Below are positions 20,531 to 28,565 of a stretch of DNA of 51,085 nt, in pieces (within the stretch, counting starts at the first letter, position 1; every line of letters starts with the position of its first letter). Source of the stretch: Clostridia bacterium. Its GTDB lineage: Bacteria; Bacillota; Clostridia; DUPQ01. Where the stretch lies: positions 1 through 51,085 of the forward strand of contig JAFGQE010000009.1 of the NCBI GenBank assembly GCA_016935835.1. The letters run 5' to 3'. The position numbers were made by a program, and so were the translations under genes. The notes under the pieces were generated by a model, which searched no databases, was not told the DNA's origin, and saw only the letters and a list, made by a program, of their open reading frames with translations.

Positions 20531-20558
20531 TTGACTTATGTTTTTCGGATGATACAAT
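20531..20558 (+). promoter_or_regulatory. Promoter TTGACT-16-TACAAT of the class II RNR gene
   Basis: TTGACT 20531-20536; TACAAT 20553-20558, overlapping the first NrdR-like box. Confidence 0.6.
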
Positions 20559-20600
20559 ATATTGTACACGACAAGACAAAAAAGCACTATATTTTGTGCT
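20553..20600 (+). promoter_or_regulatory. Tandem NrdR-like boxes
   Basis: TACAATATATTGTA (20553-20566, perfect palindrome) and AGCACTATATTTTGTGCT (20583-20600); centre-to-centre 32 bp, near three helical turns. Confidence 0.75.
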
Positions 20601-20614
20601 TTGAGGAGGAAATT

Positions 20615-22834
20615 ATGATTCTTACGGATAATGCCGTCAAGGTTCTTGAAAAACGATATCTTGCTAAGGACGAGTCAGGGAATGTAATCGAGACGCCTGA
20701 CGGGATGTTCAGAAGGGTTGCCAGGGCGGTGGCTTCCGCGGATGAGGCGTTTTTTAACAAGGAAGAAGTCGAGAAGATTGAAAATGAATTTTATGGCATG
20801 ATCTCATCGCTGGATTTTCTTCCGAATTCCCCTACGCTGATGAATGCCGGCCGTCCCCTGGGACAACTTTCGGCATGTTTTGTGCTTCCCATAGACGACT
20901 CCATGGAAGCCATATTCGAAGCAATAAAGAATTCCGCATTGATACATAAGAGCGGCGGAGGGACGGGATTCAGTTTTTCAAAGATCAGGCCGGCGGGATC
21001 GATGGTCAAGACGACGGGCGGTGTTGCAAGCGGGCCCATCAGCTTCATGAAAGTATTCAATTCCGCAACCGAAGCGGTTAAGCAGGGCGGAACCAGGCGC
21101 GGTGCGAACATGGGCATCCTAAGGGTGGACCACCCTGATATCCGGGCGTTCATTACCTGCAAACAGGATAACAAAGAAATAACGAACTTCAACATAAGTA
21201 TCGGCGTAACGGAAAAATTCATGGAAGCGGTTGAAAATGACACGGAATATGACCTTGTTCATCCTAAGAGCAAAAAAATGGTGAAAAGGGAAAGCGCAAG
21301 GGAGGTATTCGACCTGATTGTTGAAAACGCCTGGAACAACGGCGAGCCAGGAATCATTTTTCTAGACAGGATAAACAGGACGAATACGGTTCCCGGGGCG
21401 GGCGAGATAGAAAGCACAAACCCATGCGGAGAGCAGCCGCTTCTTCCTTACGAATCCTGCAACCTGGGCTCGATCAATCTTATGAATATGCTGAGCGGGG
21501 ACGGGAAGGACTTTGATTATGAAAAAATCAAGCAGACCGTGAAAAAGGCCGTTCATTTCCTTGATAATGTCATAGATGTGAACGTATATCCCCATCCCAT
21601 GATTACGGAAAGAACCAAGGCTACAAGAAAAATAGGACTGGGCGTGATGGGATGGGCCGATAGCCTTTACTCCATGGAGATCCCATACAATTCGCAGGAA
21701 GCCGTGGAACTCGGGCGAAAGCTCATGGCCTTCATAGATTCAGAGTCAAAGAAAGCTTCCATGAACCTGGCTCAGATCAAGGGGGTTTTCCCGTATTACG
21801 ACAAAAGCATATTCAAGGAGCAGGATATACTTATAAGAAATGCCACGACTACCACGATTGCGCCTACGGGAACGCTGAGCATAATTGCCGGGGTTTCAAG
21901 CGGCGTGGAGCCTGTCTTCGCCCTTTCGTTCATAAGGAACGTCATGGACAATGATGAGCTTGTCGAGGTAAACCCGGTTTTTGAAAGGCATATGATGGAA
22001 ACCGGCCGGTATTCGATTGAAATGATGAAGGAGATTGCAGCCGAGGGGACACTTGATGAAATAGAAGGCATATCGGACGACATAAAATCCATATTTGTTT
22101 CCGCCCACGACATATCCCCGGAGTGGCATATAAAAATGCAGGCTGTTTTTCAGGAATATACCGATAACGCGGTATCAAAGACAGTGAACCTGCACAAGGA
22201 AGCAACCAGGGATGACGTAAGGGATGTATTTCTCCAGGCGTACTCGCTGGGGTGCAAGGGCGTAACCCTGTACCGCGACGGCAGCAGGGATCTCCAGGTT
22301 CTGAACATAGGCGGCATAAACAGGGCGGAGACGGCAAAGCTGATGCCAAGGGAGCGTCCCGAGGTAACGACAGGTTTTACACAAAAGGTAAAGATTGGCT
22401 GCGGAAACCTGTATATCACGGTCAATTATGATGAAAACGGCAAGATATGCGAGGTTTTTACCAATACGGGAAAAGCTGGGGGATGCCCTTCGCAATCAGA
22501 GGCGACAAGCAGACTGGTCTCCATTGCGCTCAGAGCAGGAATGGATACCAAGGCAATCGTGGAGCAGCTCAAGGGAATAAGGTGCGCATCAACAATAAGG
22601 CAGAAGGGACTGAAAGTACTGTCGTGCCCGGATGCCATAGGCAGGCTCATTGAGAAAGTGGATAAGATGAACAACGGCGGCAATCCTTCCGCGGTGTTCC
22701 TTGGGGACGGGCCCGTGGAAGTATTTGAAAAACCGGGAACCGTTTATGCTTCGTGCCCTGAATGCGGAAGTCCGCTGGAACATGAAGGCGGATGCGTGGT
22801 ATGCAGGCACTGCGGATATTCCAAATGCGGATGA
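20615..22834 (+). CDS. nrdJ: Adenosylcobalamin-dependent (class II) ribonucleoside-diphosphate reductase
   Basis: SPTLMNAGRPLGQLSACFVLPI, STNPCGEQPLLPYESCNLGSINL, TGTLSIIAGVSSGVEPVFA, C-terminal Cys-rich CPECGSPLEHEGGCVVCRHCGYSKCG. Start set at 20615 (after GAGGAGG) because the ORF-track start lies in the promoter. Confidence 0.95.
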   Translation: MILTDNAVKVLEKRYLAKDESGNVIETPDGMFRRVARAVASADEAFFNKEEVEKIENEFYGMISSLDFLPNSPTLMNAGRPLGQLSACFVLPIDDSMEAIFEAIKNSALIHKSGGGTGFSFSKIRPAGSMVKTTGGVASGPISFMKVFNSATEAVKQGGTRRGANMGILRVDHPDIRAFITCKQDNKEITNFNISIGVTEKFMEAVENDTEYDLVHPKSKKMVKRESAREVFDLIVENAWNNGEPGIIFLDRINRTNTVPGAGEIESTNPCGEQPLLPYESCNLGSINLMNMLSGDGKDFDYEKIKQTVKKAVHFLDNVIDVNVYPHPMITERTKATRKIGLGVMGWADSLYSMEIPYNSQEAVELGRKLMAFIDSESKKASMNLAQIKGVFPYYDKSIFKEQDILIRNATTTTIAPTGTLSIIAGVSSGVEPVFALSFIRNVMDNDELVEVNPVFERHMMETGRYSIEMMKEIAAEGTLDEIEGISDDIKSIFVSAHDISPEWHIKMQAVFQEYTDNAVSKTVNLHKEATRDDVRDVFLQAYSLGCKGVTLYRDGSRDLQVLNIGGINRAETAKLMPRERPEVTTGFTQKVKIGCGNLYITVNYDENGKICEVFTNTGKAGGCPSQSEATSRLVSIALRAGMDTKAIVEQLKGIRCASTIRQKGLKVLSCPDAIGRLIEKVDKMNNGGNPSAVFLGDGPVEVFEKPGTVYASCPECGSPLEHEGGCVVCRHCGYSKCG

Positions 22835-22980
22835 TACAGCCGGGCATTCATTCCAAACCACCGGAATATGTAAAAAGTACACAAAAAGACAGTGGAAAAT
22901 TTATGGAAATAGATATGGAAAGTCCGAGGGTATATGTTATAATAATATAGAATAAAAACAATGAGATTGGGGGATTTCCA

Positions 22981-23316
22981 ATGGCTAAAAAGAAAATAAC
23001 TAAATTCATATTAGCGGTCAAGGATTATGAAAAAACAGTGGAAATGGTAACCGGCGGCAAAAAGAACATGCCCAAGGAAGCCAGCGTGTATGAGGAATTT
23101 TTCAATAATGTCGTTAACAAATGCTCGGATTTTGCGGGATTGAATAAATTCATAAGGGCAAGCAAATTTTCCAAGAAGGACTGCATGCACTATTGGGAAG
23201 GCCTTATGACCCTGAATTATACCCTTGTTATAATATCCTACGACAAGGGAGACGAGAATTTCGTTGAAAATGCCTGCGACAATGAATTGATAAAGTTCAT
23301 TTCCGCAGTCAGATAG
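22981..23316 (+). CDS. Small conserved hypothetical protein (111 aa)
   Basis: ORF preceded by an extended -10 (TGTTATAAT, 22935-22943) and followed by a terminator. Confidence 0.6.
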   Translation: MAKKKITKFILAVKDYEKTVEMVTGGKKNMPKEASVYEEFFNNVVNKCSDFAGLNKFIRASKFSKKDCMHYWEGLMTLNYTLVIISYDKGDENFVENACDNELIKFISAVR

Positions 23317-23329
23317 CAGACCGGCTGAC

Positions 23330-23361
23330 AAAGGGCTTTCCGAAAAGAAAGCTCTTTTTTT
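23330..23361 (+). terminator. Rho-independent terminator
   Basis: AAAGGGCTTTC-CGAAAA-GAAAGCTCTTTTTTT. Confidence 0.85.
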
Positions 23362-23369
23362 ATTTGACT

Positions 23370-24395
23370 ATGAAATATGACATAAGACGAAAAAAAAGAA
23401 TCCCCGACTATAAAAACCTCGAATTGATCCTTGGGGGCAAACCGCCTTCGAGGCCGACTCTTTTCGAGTTTTTTCTTAATGACCCGCTGTATGCGTTCCT
23501 GCTTGAAAAAGCCTCCCTTGAGTATGCAAATGTAAATGAGTACTATTATCTGCGCATGAAGGCATATGAAATAGCGGGATACGATTACATTACTATACTT
23601 GCCTCCGACATGAGGTTCAATACCAATGATGCGCACGGAATCAAGACAAAGTCGCTTAATGACGCCGCCGCCGTCACGGACAGAAAATCATTCGACCGCT
23701 TTTGCTGGCCTGATGCGAAATCATATGATTATTCAAGGCTTGATTATATAGGGGAGAGGCTTCCGCGCGGCATGAGGATAATCCCGTACGGACCGGGCGG
23801 GGTGCTGGAGAACGTTGTTTCAATGATGGGGTACGACAACCTGTGCTTTGCGTTGCATGATGACCCCCGGCTTGTGTGGGATGTCTGTGAAAAGGTGGGA
23901 TCCGCCCTGGCGGATTATTATAGGATTGTTTCCCCCAGGGATGATGTTGCGGCGGTGATTTCAAACGACGACTGGGGATTCAACACGCAGCCCATGATTT
24001 CCGAAGACGATATAAGAAGATATATACTTCCATGGCACCGCGAAATAACCGGCATCATTCATGATGCGGGAAAACCGGCCATACTGCATTCATGCGGGAA
24101 TCTCGAGTTTCTGATGGACGATATAATTGATGCGGGATATGATGCAAAGCATTCTTACGAGGACAATATCATGCCGGTTGAGGAATTCTATGGAAAGTAT
24201 AAAGGCAGGATAGCCGTTCTCGGGGGCATGGACCTTGATTTCATTTGCCGTGCAAAACCTGATGAAATTCATGCCAGGAGCAAGAGGATGGTTGAATCAG
24301 CGGACCGGGGTTACGCCCTTGGCTCGGGAAACAGCATCCCGGAATATGTTCCGTTTGAAAACTACATGGCTATGATTTACGCCGTCTATGAATGA
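23370..24395 (+). CDS. Uroporphyrinogen decarboxylase (UroD-like) family protein, second paralogue
   Basis: 343 aa; IPYGPGGVLENVVSMMGYDNLCFALHDDPRLVWDV, AVISNDDWGFNTQPMIS, PAILHSCGNLEFLMDDII. Confidence 0.8.
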   Translation: MKYDIRRKKRIPDYKNLELILGGKPPSRPTLFEFFLNDPLYAFLLEKASLEYANVNEYYYLRMKAYEIAGYDYITILASDMRFNTNDAHGIKTKSLNDAAAVTDRKSFDRFCWPDAKSYDYSRLDYIGERLPRGMRIIPYGPGGVLENVVSMMGYDNLCFALHDDPRLVWDVCEKVGSALADYYRIVSPRDDVAAVISNDDWGFNTQPMISEDDIRRYILPWHREITGIIHDAGKPAILHSCGNLEFLMDDIIDAGYDAKHSYEDNIMPVEEFYGKYKGRIAVLGGMDLDFICRAKPDEIHARSKRMVESADRGYALGSGNSIPEYVPFENYMAMIYAVYE

Positions 24396-25081
24396 TTTGC
24401 CTTTGATTCTCTATAAAAAGCATTCAGCTTCTTCATGTTGAAGATCCACATGAAAACCACAAAGGGGATAAACACCAAAAGCACTGAAACTTCTGTTGAA
24501 AGTATGAAGTTGAATGTCCCGTGGAGAAGAACCGGATACAGAAGCGATTTGCCATAGTAGCGGCGGCATTCGCCGGGGCTGCATGCAAATTTGGACAAGG
24601 CCAGGTAGTATCCCATGGTTATTGCAAAAAGCATATGGCCGGGGACCGAAAATATGGCCCGGTAAAATGCGACGGACGGGTCCGAGGGAAAGTATCTGAA
24701 AACATAAAGTAAGTTTTCTATGGCTGCAAAGCCAAGCGAAGCAAAGGCACAATAAATTATGCCGTCGAGTTTTTCGTCGAAAGCCGGGTTCCTGTAGGCA
24801 ATCTTTACAACAACAAGACGTTTCATGTACTCTTCGGTCAGGGCGGCCACGATGAAAGCCTGAAAGGCCAATGAGAGAAGACCCGGGAAAATATTCAGGC
24901 GCATCAAAAAGAACTGGATTCCGATTACCGGGACTGAAACCAGGAATCCATACAGGAAAACTTTCCAAAGGAGCCGGGCGGGCTCGCGGTTGTGCCTGTC
25001 CGCCATATAAAGAAAGGCAATCAGGATAACTATTGGTATGAGGGCAAGCGGAATGAGGCTTAAAGTCATATATAACTCCAT
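24386..25081 (-). CDS. PrsW-family intramembrane protease
   Basis: DRHNREPARLL, AALTEEYMKRLVV, DEKLDGIIYCAFASLGFAAIENLLYV, ISVPGHMLFAITMGYYLALSKF. Confidence 0.88.
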   Translation of the reverse strand: MELYMTLSLIPLALIPIVILIAFLYMADRHNREPARLLWKVFLYGFLVSVPVIGIQFFLMRLNIFPGLLSLAFQAFIVAALTEEYMKRLVVVKIAYRNPAFDEKLDGIIYCAFASLGFAAIENLLYVFRYFPSDPSVAFYRAIFSVPGHMLFAITMGYYLALSKFACSPGECRRYYGKSLLYPVLLHGTFNFILSTEVSVLLVFIPFVVFMWIFNMKKLNAFYRESKANHS

Positions 25082-25352
25082 GAGCGGATTTTATATATAG
25101 GGGAAACTGAATAACACGGGATGTCTGACATTCAGCCGCGGAAACAGACCGACGGGCTAAAGATACAAAATGCGGCCATAGGCAAGGCGCATATCCAAGT
25201 TTTTCAGCAAACCCTATAAAAGGATTATACAGCAGGGGCAGGAGGTTGAAAAGCAGGCAGCCCGGTTGGGTTCGGGAGCCAAAGTAATCCATGCTATTGA
25301 AAGAGATTACCATGGATGATAAACTTAAGGCGATAAAAACGGAGGTGGCGCA

Positions 25353-26246
25353 ATGAAGAAAATCAAGGCATCGATAATCGGTCTGGATACAAGTCATTCA
25401 ATACAATTTACGCAACGGGCCCAGGCGCCCGACTGCGATCCGCAGCAGAGGGTCGATGGACTCGAAATAATAAGCTGCATGCGTTTTGAGACGCCTTTCC
25501 AGGACAGGAAAGGGCTCGACGAAAGATCGGCCCAGCTGGAAAAATGGGGGGTGAAGGTCTATGAGGATTTCGACAGGACGGTTGCAGGCGCGGACGCATT
25601 GCTTCTTGAAATAAACGACCCTATCCTGCACCTTGAATATTTTAAAAAAGCAGCGGCACTTGGAAAACCGATATTTTTGGACAAGCCCCTTGCTGACAAT
25701 ATTGAAAATGGCCTGGAAATCGTAAGGATTGCACGGGAAAGCAATATCAGGATGTTTTCAGCATCCTCGCTTCGCTTCATAAAAGATCTTGAGGAAGTTA
25801 CGGACAGAATGGAAGGAATCCAGTGCGCATCGGTTTTTGGTCCGCTCGGACTTGCGGCCGCAGGCGAATCCGTCGTATGGTATGGCGTTCATACTTTTGA
25901 AATGCTTCAGCGACTGATGGGAAGCGGCGCCGTGGAAGTTTCGGTCGTCAAGGACGGCAAGGGAGTCGTGGCGGTGGTCGGATACAACGACGGCAGGCGC
26001 GGGGTCGTTGAACTTGCCGAGGGTGCGTTCGTATATGGCGGATCGGTCAGGAGTGATTCTGACAAAGCCGTGTTCATAGCCGATATGACATATGCATACA
26101 AAGGACTTCTCGATAGAATCGTCGCATTCTTCAATGGCGGGCCTTCACCGGTAAGCCTTGACGCCACACTGGAAATAATGAACATGATAGATGCAACTGT
26201 TAAGGCGATGAAATCGGGAAAAACAGAAAAACTGACCGCTGTATGA
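25353..26246 (+). CDS. Gfo/Idh/MocA-family oxidoreductase
   Basis: ASIIGLDTSHS, GKPIFLDKPLADN and overall Gfo/Idh architecture. Confidence 0.75.
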   Translation: MKKIKASIIGLDTSHSIQFTQRAQAPDCDPQQRVDGLEIISCMRFETPFQDRKGLDERSAQLEKWGVKVYEDFDRTVAGADALLLEINDPILHLEYFKKAAALGKPIFLDKPLADNIENGLEIVRIARESNIRMFSASSLRFIKDLEEVTDRMEGIQCASVFGPLGLAAAGESVVWYGVHTFEMLQRLMGSGAVEVSVVKDGKGVVAVVGYNDGRRGVVELAEGAFVYGGSVRSDSDKAVFIADMTYAYKGLLDRIVAFFNGGPSPVSLDATLEIMNMIDATVKAMKSGKTEKLTAV

Positions 26247-26289: not shown

Positions 26290-26346
26290 CAGCGGTAAAA
26301 AAATACATGGACCGGTGAAAAACCGGGGCCACATGGAGGGGAAGCG

Positions 26347-27726
26347 ATGAATGCTGTTAAGAAAGCATATATTATGCCCCATCCTCCTATCATAATCCCG
26401 GATATCGGGAGAGGCAGCGAGAAGGAAGCATTCAGGACGATGGAAGGATGTAATTCGGCTGCTGCAGACATAGCAAGGTTAAATCCCGAAACCATAATAA
26501 TCATAACTCCGCACGGTCCGGTCTTTCGGGATTCGGTCTGCATTAATGCCAACCCCGTTTTAAAGGGTGACTTCGGTGGATTCGGATTCAGGCAGATTGC
26601 GTTTGAGTTTAATAATGACACGGGGCTTTGCTCGGAAATATGCTCAATTATGCAGGCGATGGGGATAATTCCGGTAAGGAACGACAAAAAAAGCCAAAGT
26701 GCCTATGGTATAAATGACAGGATCGACCATGGCGCGCTGGTCCCTTTATATTTTGTCCTTAAATTTCTGAAGGAATTCAAAATAGTTCACATAACCATTG
26801 GAATGCTGAGCCCGAAGGACCTGTACAAGTGCGGAATGGCCATAGAGGCCGCCGTGGAACAAACCGGAAGAAGGGCGTGTGTAATAGCAAGCGCCGATTT
26901 GTCGCACAGGCTGAAAAAAGACGGCCCTTATGGATTGCATCCCGACGGGGCAAGATATGATGATTTTGCGGTTGATGCGATAAAAAACCGGCGGTTCGTT
27001 GATTTTCTTGGAGCTGACGAAGGCCTGAGGGATAATGCCGGGGAATGCGGGCACAGGTCAATCAGCATAATGCTTGGGGTTTTCGAAGGGCGGGAATGCA
27101 GATCTGCGGTCTTTTCATACGAAGGTCCTTTCGGGGTCGGGTATATGACGGCTGTCCTTGAGGACGCGGGGAAAGGAATGAGTGTTCTGGATGAATACAT
27201 GAGAAGGCAAGGAGCTAAAAAGCCCGGGGCGGAATCGCCTTATGTGAGGCTTGCCCGGATGGCAATCGAGGAATTCGTAAGGAACAGAAAGAGAATTCAT
27301 CCTGATAAACCAAGCCAGGTTCAAAGAGGTGTTTTCGTTTCAATTAAAAAATTCGGGATGCTTCGCGGATGCATAGGAACGATTGGCCCTGCAAAGGACT
27401 GCATAGAAAATGAAATCATAGCAAATGCAATCAAAGCCGCATCCGAGGATCCGAGGTTCCCTCCTGTTGAAGAATCAGAGCTGGAGGATTTGTCAATAAG
27501 CGTGGATGTTCTTTCCGAGCCGGAGGAAATAAGCGATAAAAGCATGCTGGATGTAAAGAAATACGGTGTAATTGTTTCAAAAGGATTCAAAAGAGGCCTT
27601 CTTCTTCCGGACATTGACGGAGTCGATACCATCGAAAAGCAGATTGAAATAGCACTTAGAAAAGCGGGAATCGACGGAAGGGATGCGTATAGGATGGAGA
27701 GATTCAAAGTGGAACGCCACACATGA
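26347..27726 (+). CDS. AmmeMemoRadiSam system fused protein (MEMO/class III extradiol dioxygenase-like plus AMMECR1)
   Basis: N-terminus AYIMPHPPIIIPDIGRG ... YGINDRIDHGALVPLYF ... IASADLSHRL; C-terminus YVRLARMAIEEFV ... GVFVSIKKFGMLRGCIGTIGP ... AASEDPRFPPVEESELEDLSISVDVLS. Confidence 0.93.
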   Translation: MNAVKKAYIMPHPPIIIPDIGRGSEKEAFRTMEGCNSAAADIARLNPETIIIITPHGPVFRDSVCINANPVLKGDFGGFGFRQIAFEFNNDTGLCSEICSIMQAMGIIPVRNDKKSQSAYGINDRIDHGALVPLYFVLKFLKEFKIVHITIGMLSPKDLYKCGMAIEAAVEQTGRRACVIASADLSHRLKKDGPYGLHPDGARYDDFAVDAIKNRRFVDFLGADEGLRDNAGECGHRSISIMLGVFEGRECRSAVFSYEGPFGVGYMTAVLEDAGKGMSVLDEYMRRQGAKKPGAESPYVRLARMAIEEFVRNRKRIHPDKPSQVQRGVFVSIKKFGMLRGCIGTIGPAKDCIENEIIANAIKAASEDPRFPPVEESELEDLSISVDVLSEPEEISDKSMLDVKKYGVIVSKGFKRGLLLPDIDGVDTIEKQIEIALRKAGIDGRDAYRMERFKVERHT

Positions 27727-28565
27727 AGGAAGCTGATTTCTACGAAAAAACGGGGAATGGCGCCGTAAAGTGCCTTTTGTGCCCGCACCATTGCATTATA
27801 AGGGATGGCATGAAGGGAATCTGCGGGGTCCGGTGGAATTCAGGCGGCAAACTTTATGCGCTTTCTTATGAAATGATTTCCTCGATTGCGCTTGATCCAA
27901 TGAGAAAGAAGCCTTTGGATTTCTTCATGCCTGACAGCTCAATCCTTTCCGTGGGCTCCTATGGATGCAATTTCAAATGTGATTTTTGCCAGAATTATCA
28001 TATTTCCATGGAAATTCCTTCGCTTGACAGAATTGATGCGGACAGGCTTTGCGAAATAGCCCGGGGAATCAAAGGCAATGCTGGCCTGGCATTTACATAC
28101 AATGAACCATTCATTTGGTATGAATATGTCCTTGAGACATGCATAAAAAACAAAAGGCAGGGACTTTTCAATGTGCTTGTGACAAACGGCTATGTCGAGG
28201 AGAAACCGCTTGAGCATATTCTGCCGCATATAGATGCGATGAACATAGACCTGAAGGCGTTCAGACAGGATTTTTACAAAAAGGTATGCGGCGGAAATCT
28301 CGAATCCGTCAAAAAGACAATAATTCAAAGCGCCGGGGCATGCCACGTTGAAATTACCAACATGTCGGTTCCGGGAATGAATGACTCTGATGAGGAAATG
28401 GAAGAAATGTGCCGTTGGATTGAAGAAGTAGACAGAAACATACCCCTGCATATAATTGCGTTTCGGCCTATGTATAAAATGAAGGACCTTCCGCCACAGG
28501 ATCCAAAAAGAATAAGACGCCTCGGGGAAATCGCTATGAGGCATCTGGACAGGGTTGTGATTTAG
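27723..28565 (+). CDS. amrS: AmmeMemoRadiSam system radical SAM enzyme
   Basis: CLLCPHHCIIRDGMKGICGVR, radical SAM motif CNFKCDFCQNYHIS; overlaps the upstream ORF by 4 nt. Confidence 0.93.
   Translation: MKEADFYEKTGNGAVKCLLCPHHCIIRDGMKGICGVRWNSGGKLYALSYEMISSIALDPMRKKPLDFFMPDSSILSVGSYGCNFKCDFCQNYHISMEIPSLDRIDADRLCEIARGIKGNAGLAFTYNEPFIWYEYVLETCIKNKRQGLFNVLVTNGYVEEKPLEHILPHIDAMNIDLKAFRQDFYKKVCGGNLESVKKTIIQSAGACHVEITNMSVPGMNDSDEEMEEMCRWIEEVDRNIPLHIIAFRPMYKMKDLPPQDPKRIRRLGEIAMRHLDRVVI

Follow-up and report, generated by a model that had tools for sequence, protein, structure and literature searches.

A LigB-type domain fused to AMMECR1 and overlapping AmrS: a probable common clostridial form of the AmmeMemoRadiSam module

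The AmmeMemoRadiSam (Amr) system is represented in NCBIfam by three models, TIGR04335, TIGR04336 and TIGR04337, for the products of amrA, amrB and amrS, and in the literature searched its function is touched on by annotation mentions alone. The CDD entry cd07951 (ED_3B_N_AMMECR1) presumably describes an extradiol-dioxygenase-B-like N-terminal domain fused to AMMECR1, a domain order that we take to be the one seen in the protein described here. Memo has reportedly been linked by Burroughs and colleagues, in their 2019 article in J Biol Chem, to the modification of nucleotide bases and isoprenoids. The article of Burroughs et al. (J Biol Chem 2019) is cited in PMC7694686, and a radical SAM domain of peptide-processing systems has been mentioned as related to that of Memo-Ammecr1 systems (PMC7159879). 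Human MEMO1 binds iron and copper through H49, H81 and C244, so that C244 is a ligand, and it modulates iron homeostasis, whereas dioxygenase activity was not found (PMC11081632).

The clostridial contig studied here, referred to as the window (the whole analysed stretch of 51,085 nucleotides), carries a two-gene locus with the following features, all on the forward strand:

26335-26341, + strand: likely ribosome-binding site GGAGGGG, read directly in the sequence
26347-27726, + strand: fused LigB/MEMO-like and AMMECR1 protein (AmrB-AmrA fusion), 459 aa, from the open reading frame, NCBIfam, Pfam, relatives and AlphaFold2
26365-27147, + strand: LigB-type (class III extradiol dioxygenase-like) domain, residues 7-267 (Pfam PF02900, E=1.5e-42; Foldseek)
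26380-26382, + strand: His12, putative metal ligand, invariant in 81/81
26512-26514, + strand: His56 of the TPHG motif, putative metal ligand, invariant in 81/81
26896-26907, + strand: D184-H187 (DLSH), putative acid/base residues near the metal, with D184, S186 and H187 invariant in 81/81
27040-27051, + strand: G232-E233-C234-G235, with C234 in 81/81 and position 233 E in 72, Q in 8 and V in 1 (profile alignments)
27244-27717, + strand: AMMECR1 domain, residues 300-457, with the LRGCIGT loop (Pfam PF01871, E=1.4e-43; TIGR04335), R340, C342, G344 and T345 invariant in 81/81
27723-27726, + strand: ATGA start/stop overlap of 4 nt between the fusion and AmrS genes, read in the sequence
27723-28565, + strand: radical SAM enzyme AmrS, 280 aa (TIGR04337, 255 bits; Radical_SAM PF04055)
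27771-27824, + strand: N-terminal Cys4 of AmrS, C17-x2-C20-x3-C24-x9-C34, four Cys invariant in 25/25 and 65/65
27966-27989, + strand: radical SAM CxxxCxxC of AmrS, C82, C86 and C89, invariant in 65/65

The original prediction, of a MEMO-like domain and AMMECR1 in one 459-aa open reading frame that overlaps a radical SAM gene by 4 nt, is exact to the base: the frame starts at ATG and contains the motifs ITPHGP, RIDHGALVPLYF, ASADLSHR and GMLRGCIGTIG, and the following frame carries CNFKCDFC, which fits the CxxxCxxC pattern of the radical SAM superfamily. The same ATGA type of overlap recurs in close relatives. An assembly artefact as the source of the fusion is ruled out by the many independent genomes that carry it intact, and no RNA elements were found in the window at Rfam gathering scores. 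The predicted module identity also held, as all three NCBIfam models scored above their cut-offs: AmmeMemoRadiSam protein A passed with 127 bits (cut-off 99) and AmrS with 255 bits (cut-off 220), and protein B passed marginally with 35 bits (cut-off 26), in a partial match covering 126-237 of 270 positions. The N-terminal half is only marginal to TIGR04336 because it is LigB-type. In the AlphaFold2 model of the fusion, built from a 29-row alignment, there are two well-modelled folded domains (mean pLDDT 92.6, pTM 0.70), and the chain is softer around residues 281-300. Truncation of AmrS, which has 280 aa against a model of 349 positions, was considered and rejected, since 260-299 aa is the commonest size class of this protein (46 of 64).

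The description of the N-terminal half as "class III extradiol-dioxygenase/MEMO-like" stood in its first part, whereas the likeness to MEMO turned out to be secondary. LigB matches this half over its full length with 146 bits, against 33 bits (E=5e-8) over part of the domain for Memo, and among aligned relatives LigB is matched by 29/29 and Memo by 15/29. A profile search of the PDB recovered TK2203 and dihydroxyphenylacetate and aminophenol dioxygenases, with no match to MEMO1 at E values up to 0.01, and in Foldseek TK2203 (5HEE) came first (E=3.5e-20), followed by aminophenol dioxygenases, with MEMO1 at rank 37 (E=4e-8, 14% identity). Thus, the half belongs by fold and family match with the class III extradiol dioxygenases (LigB/PCAD) and lacks the full-length best match to the Memo model that marks the canonical Memo family (PF01875), although the strict H, H, Glu triad of the dioxygenases is not kept throughout the fusion family, in which the Glu position is E in the window protein and Q or V in 9/81.

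A different arrangement is seen in Bacteroidota. The Segatella hominis protein WP_218456557.1 has a canonical Memo domain (Pfam Memo, 194 bits; no Pfam match to LigB) fused to AMMECR1 and followed by amrS. Canonical Memo in Segatella and the LigB-type domain in Clostridia occupy the equivalent position, and therefore one slot of the module holds two branches of one superfamily. The plasmid-borne Memo-AMMECR1 fusion of Segatella (L139, 4524-5999) has a hydrophobic leader, MRKIVLVVLLTMCMMM, at its start, a hint that in Bacteroidota the protein may be exported or anchored in the membrane. In addition, a few clostridial genomes encode extra canonical Memo proteins (L141, 392-6249; similar in three other loci and possibly in a fourth) that score above the AmmeMemoRadiSam B cut-off, have a lipoprotein-like signal and lack the Cys of the metal motif (DSPPSI). 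The gene at L141 overlaps by 4 nt a very large gene that is alpha-2-macroglobulin-like in appearance, and these proteins look like a separate, exported Memo system.

Conservation across 81 fusions points to a putative active site. H12, H56, D127, D184, S186, H187 and C234 are invariant (81/81), as are R340, C342, G344 and T345 of the RGCIGT motif in the AMMECR1 half, and position 233 is E in 72, Q in 8 and V in 1. In profile alignments E233 lies opposite the Glu of HpaD-type and aminophenol enzymes, and C234 corresponds, via a common CG motif, to the Cys of Segatella Memo; therefore, the GECG motif carries both candidate third ligands. Of these, the Cys alone appears indispensable, and Glu233 would be less essential because Gln or Val replaces it in 9/81. 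C234 is presumably the counterpart of MEMO1 C244, and D184 and H187 would correspond, by a common motif, to MEMO1 D189 and H192. Judged from sequence and profile alignment, the putative metal site would comprise H12, H56 and C234, apparently as in MEMO1, with the mostly kept Glu233 alongside at the dioxygenase position. In AmrS, seven Cys are invariant in 65/65 sequences (C17, C20, C24, C34, C82, C86 and C89), and the first four of these are probably the site of another cluster or of a metal.

The fusion is a widespread and already catalogued architecture. Matches were obtained in 30 of 60 relatives, most with a single open frame spanning the whole fusion. When 196 genomes were sampled evenly across the class, AMMECR1 was detected in 78, nearly always within an open frame of about 430-520 aa, which is the fused size. 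A scan of named genomes gave at least 593 coding matches, spread over hundreds of genome records; among the matches listed, full-length ones came from many clostridial families, from Pelosinus and from the spirochaete Brucepastera, the last with a stop codon inside the matched stretch. Among plasmids, one Segatella record was the only relative, besides weak HpaD matches for the N-terminal half. Frames of fusion size in most AMMECR1-positive genomes, together with the many full-length matches, thus make the fusion ordinary; the idea that it was a local novelty was rejected, as fusion is the rule in the class. The LigB–AMMECR1 fusion with AmrS is a standard gene pair of anaerobes in dozens of bacterial families.

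The view that the fusion and the overlapping gene serve one pathway, put forward in the original prediction, is well supported. AmrS was detected in 75 of the 196 genomes, all of them among the 78 with AMMECR1 (Fisher p about 3e-51, uncorrected for kinship), and it adjoins the fusion in 69 of the 77 judgeable loci, which are the best-scoring ones and not independent: it is the next gene downstream in 68 and the next one upstream in the other, typically with an overlap or within tens of bases. The strongest support comes from unlinked pairs, since two single-contig genomes keep both genes although roughly 1 Mb or more separates them, whichever way round the circle is measured. The converse, that the halves act independently, finds minor support alone: AmrS is missing at the threshold used from three of the 78 AMMECR1-positive genomes, and in a few genomes a canonical Memo, predicted to be a lipoprotein, occurs separately. 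Among the controls, Thermotoga maritima, Methanocaldococcus, Methanosarcina and Sulfolobus have both AMMECR1 and AmrS, and Haloferax volcanii has AMMECR1 without AmrS, as is also the case in eukaryotes so far as is known. AmrS is thus not always needed, because these three clostridial genomes and Haloferax volcanii carry AMMECR1 alone. Taken together, co-occurrence and adjacency make it very probable that the three domains serve one pathway.

A wider conserved operon was rejected, the fusion and AmrS being the only recurring genes; the next most frequent neighbours are scattered (cdaA/cdaR in 8-10 loci, cwlD in 10 and an FAD protein in 7). The Gfo/Idh and UroD genes beside the module, which had been singled out for comparison across genomes, prove to be family-level context outside the conserved module. 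Gfo/Idh (PF01408) precedes the module both in the window and in the four genomes examined from two genera, g1 and g2 (L031-L034), accompanied by UroD-family genes in most of these loci, and the order in g2 is Gfo/Idh, UroD, fusion, AmrS, GH116; no relative of the window's Gfo/Idh was found near the module outside the close family. Downstream lie genes for branched-chain amino acids that on inspection look ilvN-, ilvC-, leuA- and cimA-like; they recur in the window's genus only and give no general clue to the substrate. Upstream, positions 20531-26246 of the window encode a ribonucleotide reductase with a TSCPD domain, a small conserved protein, a UroD-family protein, a PrsW protease whose gene is divergently oriented, and Gfo/Idh, a block largely kept in genera g1 and g2. 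In a sister genus (L033, 7496-13069; also L034 and L048, the latter a public copy of the L034 contig), the fusion is separated from Gfo/Idh by a different UroD-family gene, and AmrS is followed nearly without a gap by the gene of a GH116 glycosidase, an arrangement suggestive of a glycoside-catabolism operon into which the module was taken. The diadenylate cyclase gene cdaA, usually with cdaR, is found near the module in about ten loci, possibly as old synteny.

The best explanation is that the locus is the common clostridial form of the Amr module, in which the Memo position is taken by a LigB-type domain that is joined to AMMECR1 in one protein and translationally coupled to AmrS; we give it, jointly with the pathway and mechanism that follow, a probability of roughly 0.68. 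Most likely, the three domains would act in one oxygen-independent, metal-dependent modification pathway, in which AmrS, with a [4Fe-4S] cluster at C82/C86/C89 and its N-terminal Cys4 site, would make a radical on the substrate. The LigB-type domain would hold Fe(II) or a similar ion via H12, H56 and C234, with E233 nearby, and might carry out a companion, non-dioxygenase step with D184/H187 as acid/base, thereby completing or preparing the AmrS reaction, and AMMECR1 may hold or hand over the substrate. The domains and invariant residues, like the co-occurrence and the adjacency, are observed directly, and the metal, the chemistry and the order of steps are what we infer here. That the pathway modifies a nucleotide or base, or an isoprenoid, as in the published guess, is possible but rather doubtful.

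Other readings concern the N-terminal half and AmrS in turn. LigB is by far the best Pfam match of the N-terminal half, its best structural neighbours include aminophenol and dihydroxyphenylacetate dioxygenases, and most members have at position 233 a Glu that lines up with the iron-ligand Glu, as would suit a genuine O2-using, ring-cleaving extradiol dioxygenase of aromatic catabolism whose association with AMMECR1 and AmrS is incidental. However, O2-dependent ring cleavage is unlikely because many carriers are Clostridia, in which the family is concentrated as judged by record titles among the matches listed, and many Clostridia are obligate anaerobes. Moreover, Glu233 is lost in 9/81 members but Cys234 is kept, no aromatic-catabolism genes recur beside the fusion in the loci compared, and every AmrS-positive genome has AMMECR1, all of which makes a true dioxygenase very improbable. 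In NCBIfam and the PDB alike, AmrS scores next best against glycyl-radical activases (YjjW, PFLA and PFL-AE), and it might accordingly be an activase for a glycyl radical enzyme, like its closest characterised relatives, with the fusion protein assisting. This is very improbable. Of the 75 genomes with AmrS, 21 yielded no Gly_radical domain, although several of these 21 are 96% complete or better; genomes with AmrS have such domains less often, if there is any difference, than those lacking it (odds ratio 0.42), and no glycyl radical enzyme recurs beside the module. The window's own genome has one Gly_radical match. Action of AmrS on a substrate is favoured because the domain is undetectable in those 21 genomes and its presence is not enriched.

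A further reading, unlikely though less remote than these two, is that the module handles metals: the LigB/Memo domain would carry or sense iron or copper instead of acting as an enzyme, and AmrS and AMMECR1 would serve metal-centre maturation. The metal binding of MEMO1, its effect on iron homeostasis and its apparent lack of dioxygenase activity fit such a role, as does the H/H/Cys site, invariant in 81 fusions; yet the invariance extends to D184 and H187, as one would expect if the domain were an enzyme, and no metal transport or storage genes are among the recurring neighbours.

The window itself adds one more example of a known pair, and it sharpens the question of substrate little except through the exchange of LigB for Memo and the GECG site. 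We suggest, tentatively and with less than even odds, that the domain occupying the Memo slot in Clostridia is of the dioxygenase branch and that its site, combining the dioxygenase Glu and the MEMO Cys, runs an O2-free reaction on the extradiol-dioxygenase scaffold with a radical SAM partner. If true, this would be chemistry not described for that fold and would show which activity originally underlay human MEMO1 and AMMECR1. Both are disease-related proteins, and the module ties them to a radical pathway of anaerobes. For reconstitution, the two-gene form found in Clostridia is the simplest one, and LigB-type and canonical Memo domains in one slot, in different phyla and with a common Cys, offer a residue-level test of the role of the site.

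In comparison with known systems, the locus shares with the AmmeMemoRadiSam system three passed models, adjacent genes and co-occurrence at the genome level, and differs in having B fused to A, with a B half of LigB type. Human MEMO1 has the superfamily fold of the N-terminal half and apparently the same H, H, Cys metal ligands, but it is distant, is not fused to AMMECR1 and, to our knowledge, has no radical SAM partner. The closest solved structures to this half are TK2203 (5HEE) and the aminophenol 1,6-dioxygenases (3VSG, 7TXY); true dioxygenases depend on O2 and an H, H, Glu triad and carry no AMMECR1 domain, whereas in the fusion family the Glu is adjoined by an invariant Cys. The window protein is presumably simply a member of cd07951, from which we know of no difference. 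Finally, amrB of Segatella hominis likewise encodes a two-domain fusion ending in AMMECR1 with amrS after it, but there the N-terminal half is canonical Memo instead of LigB-type.
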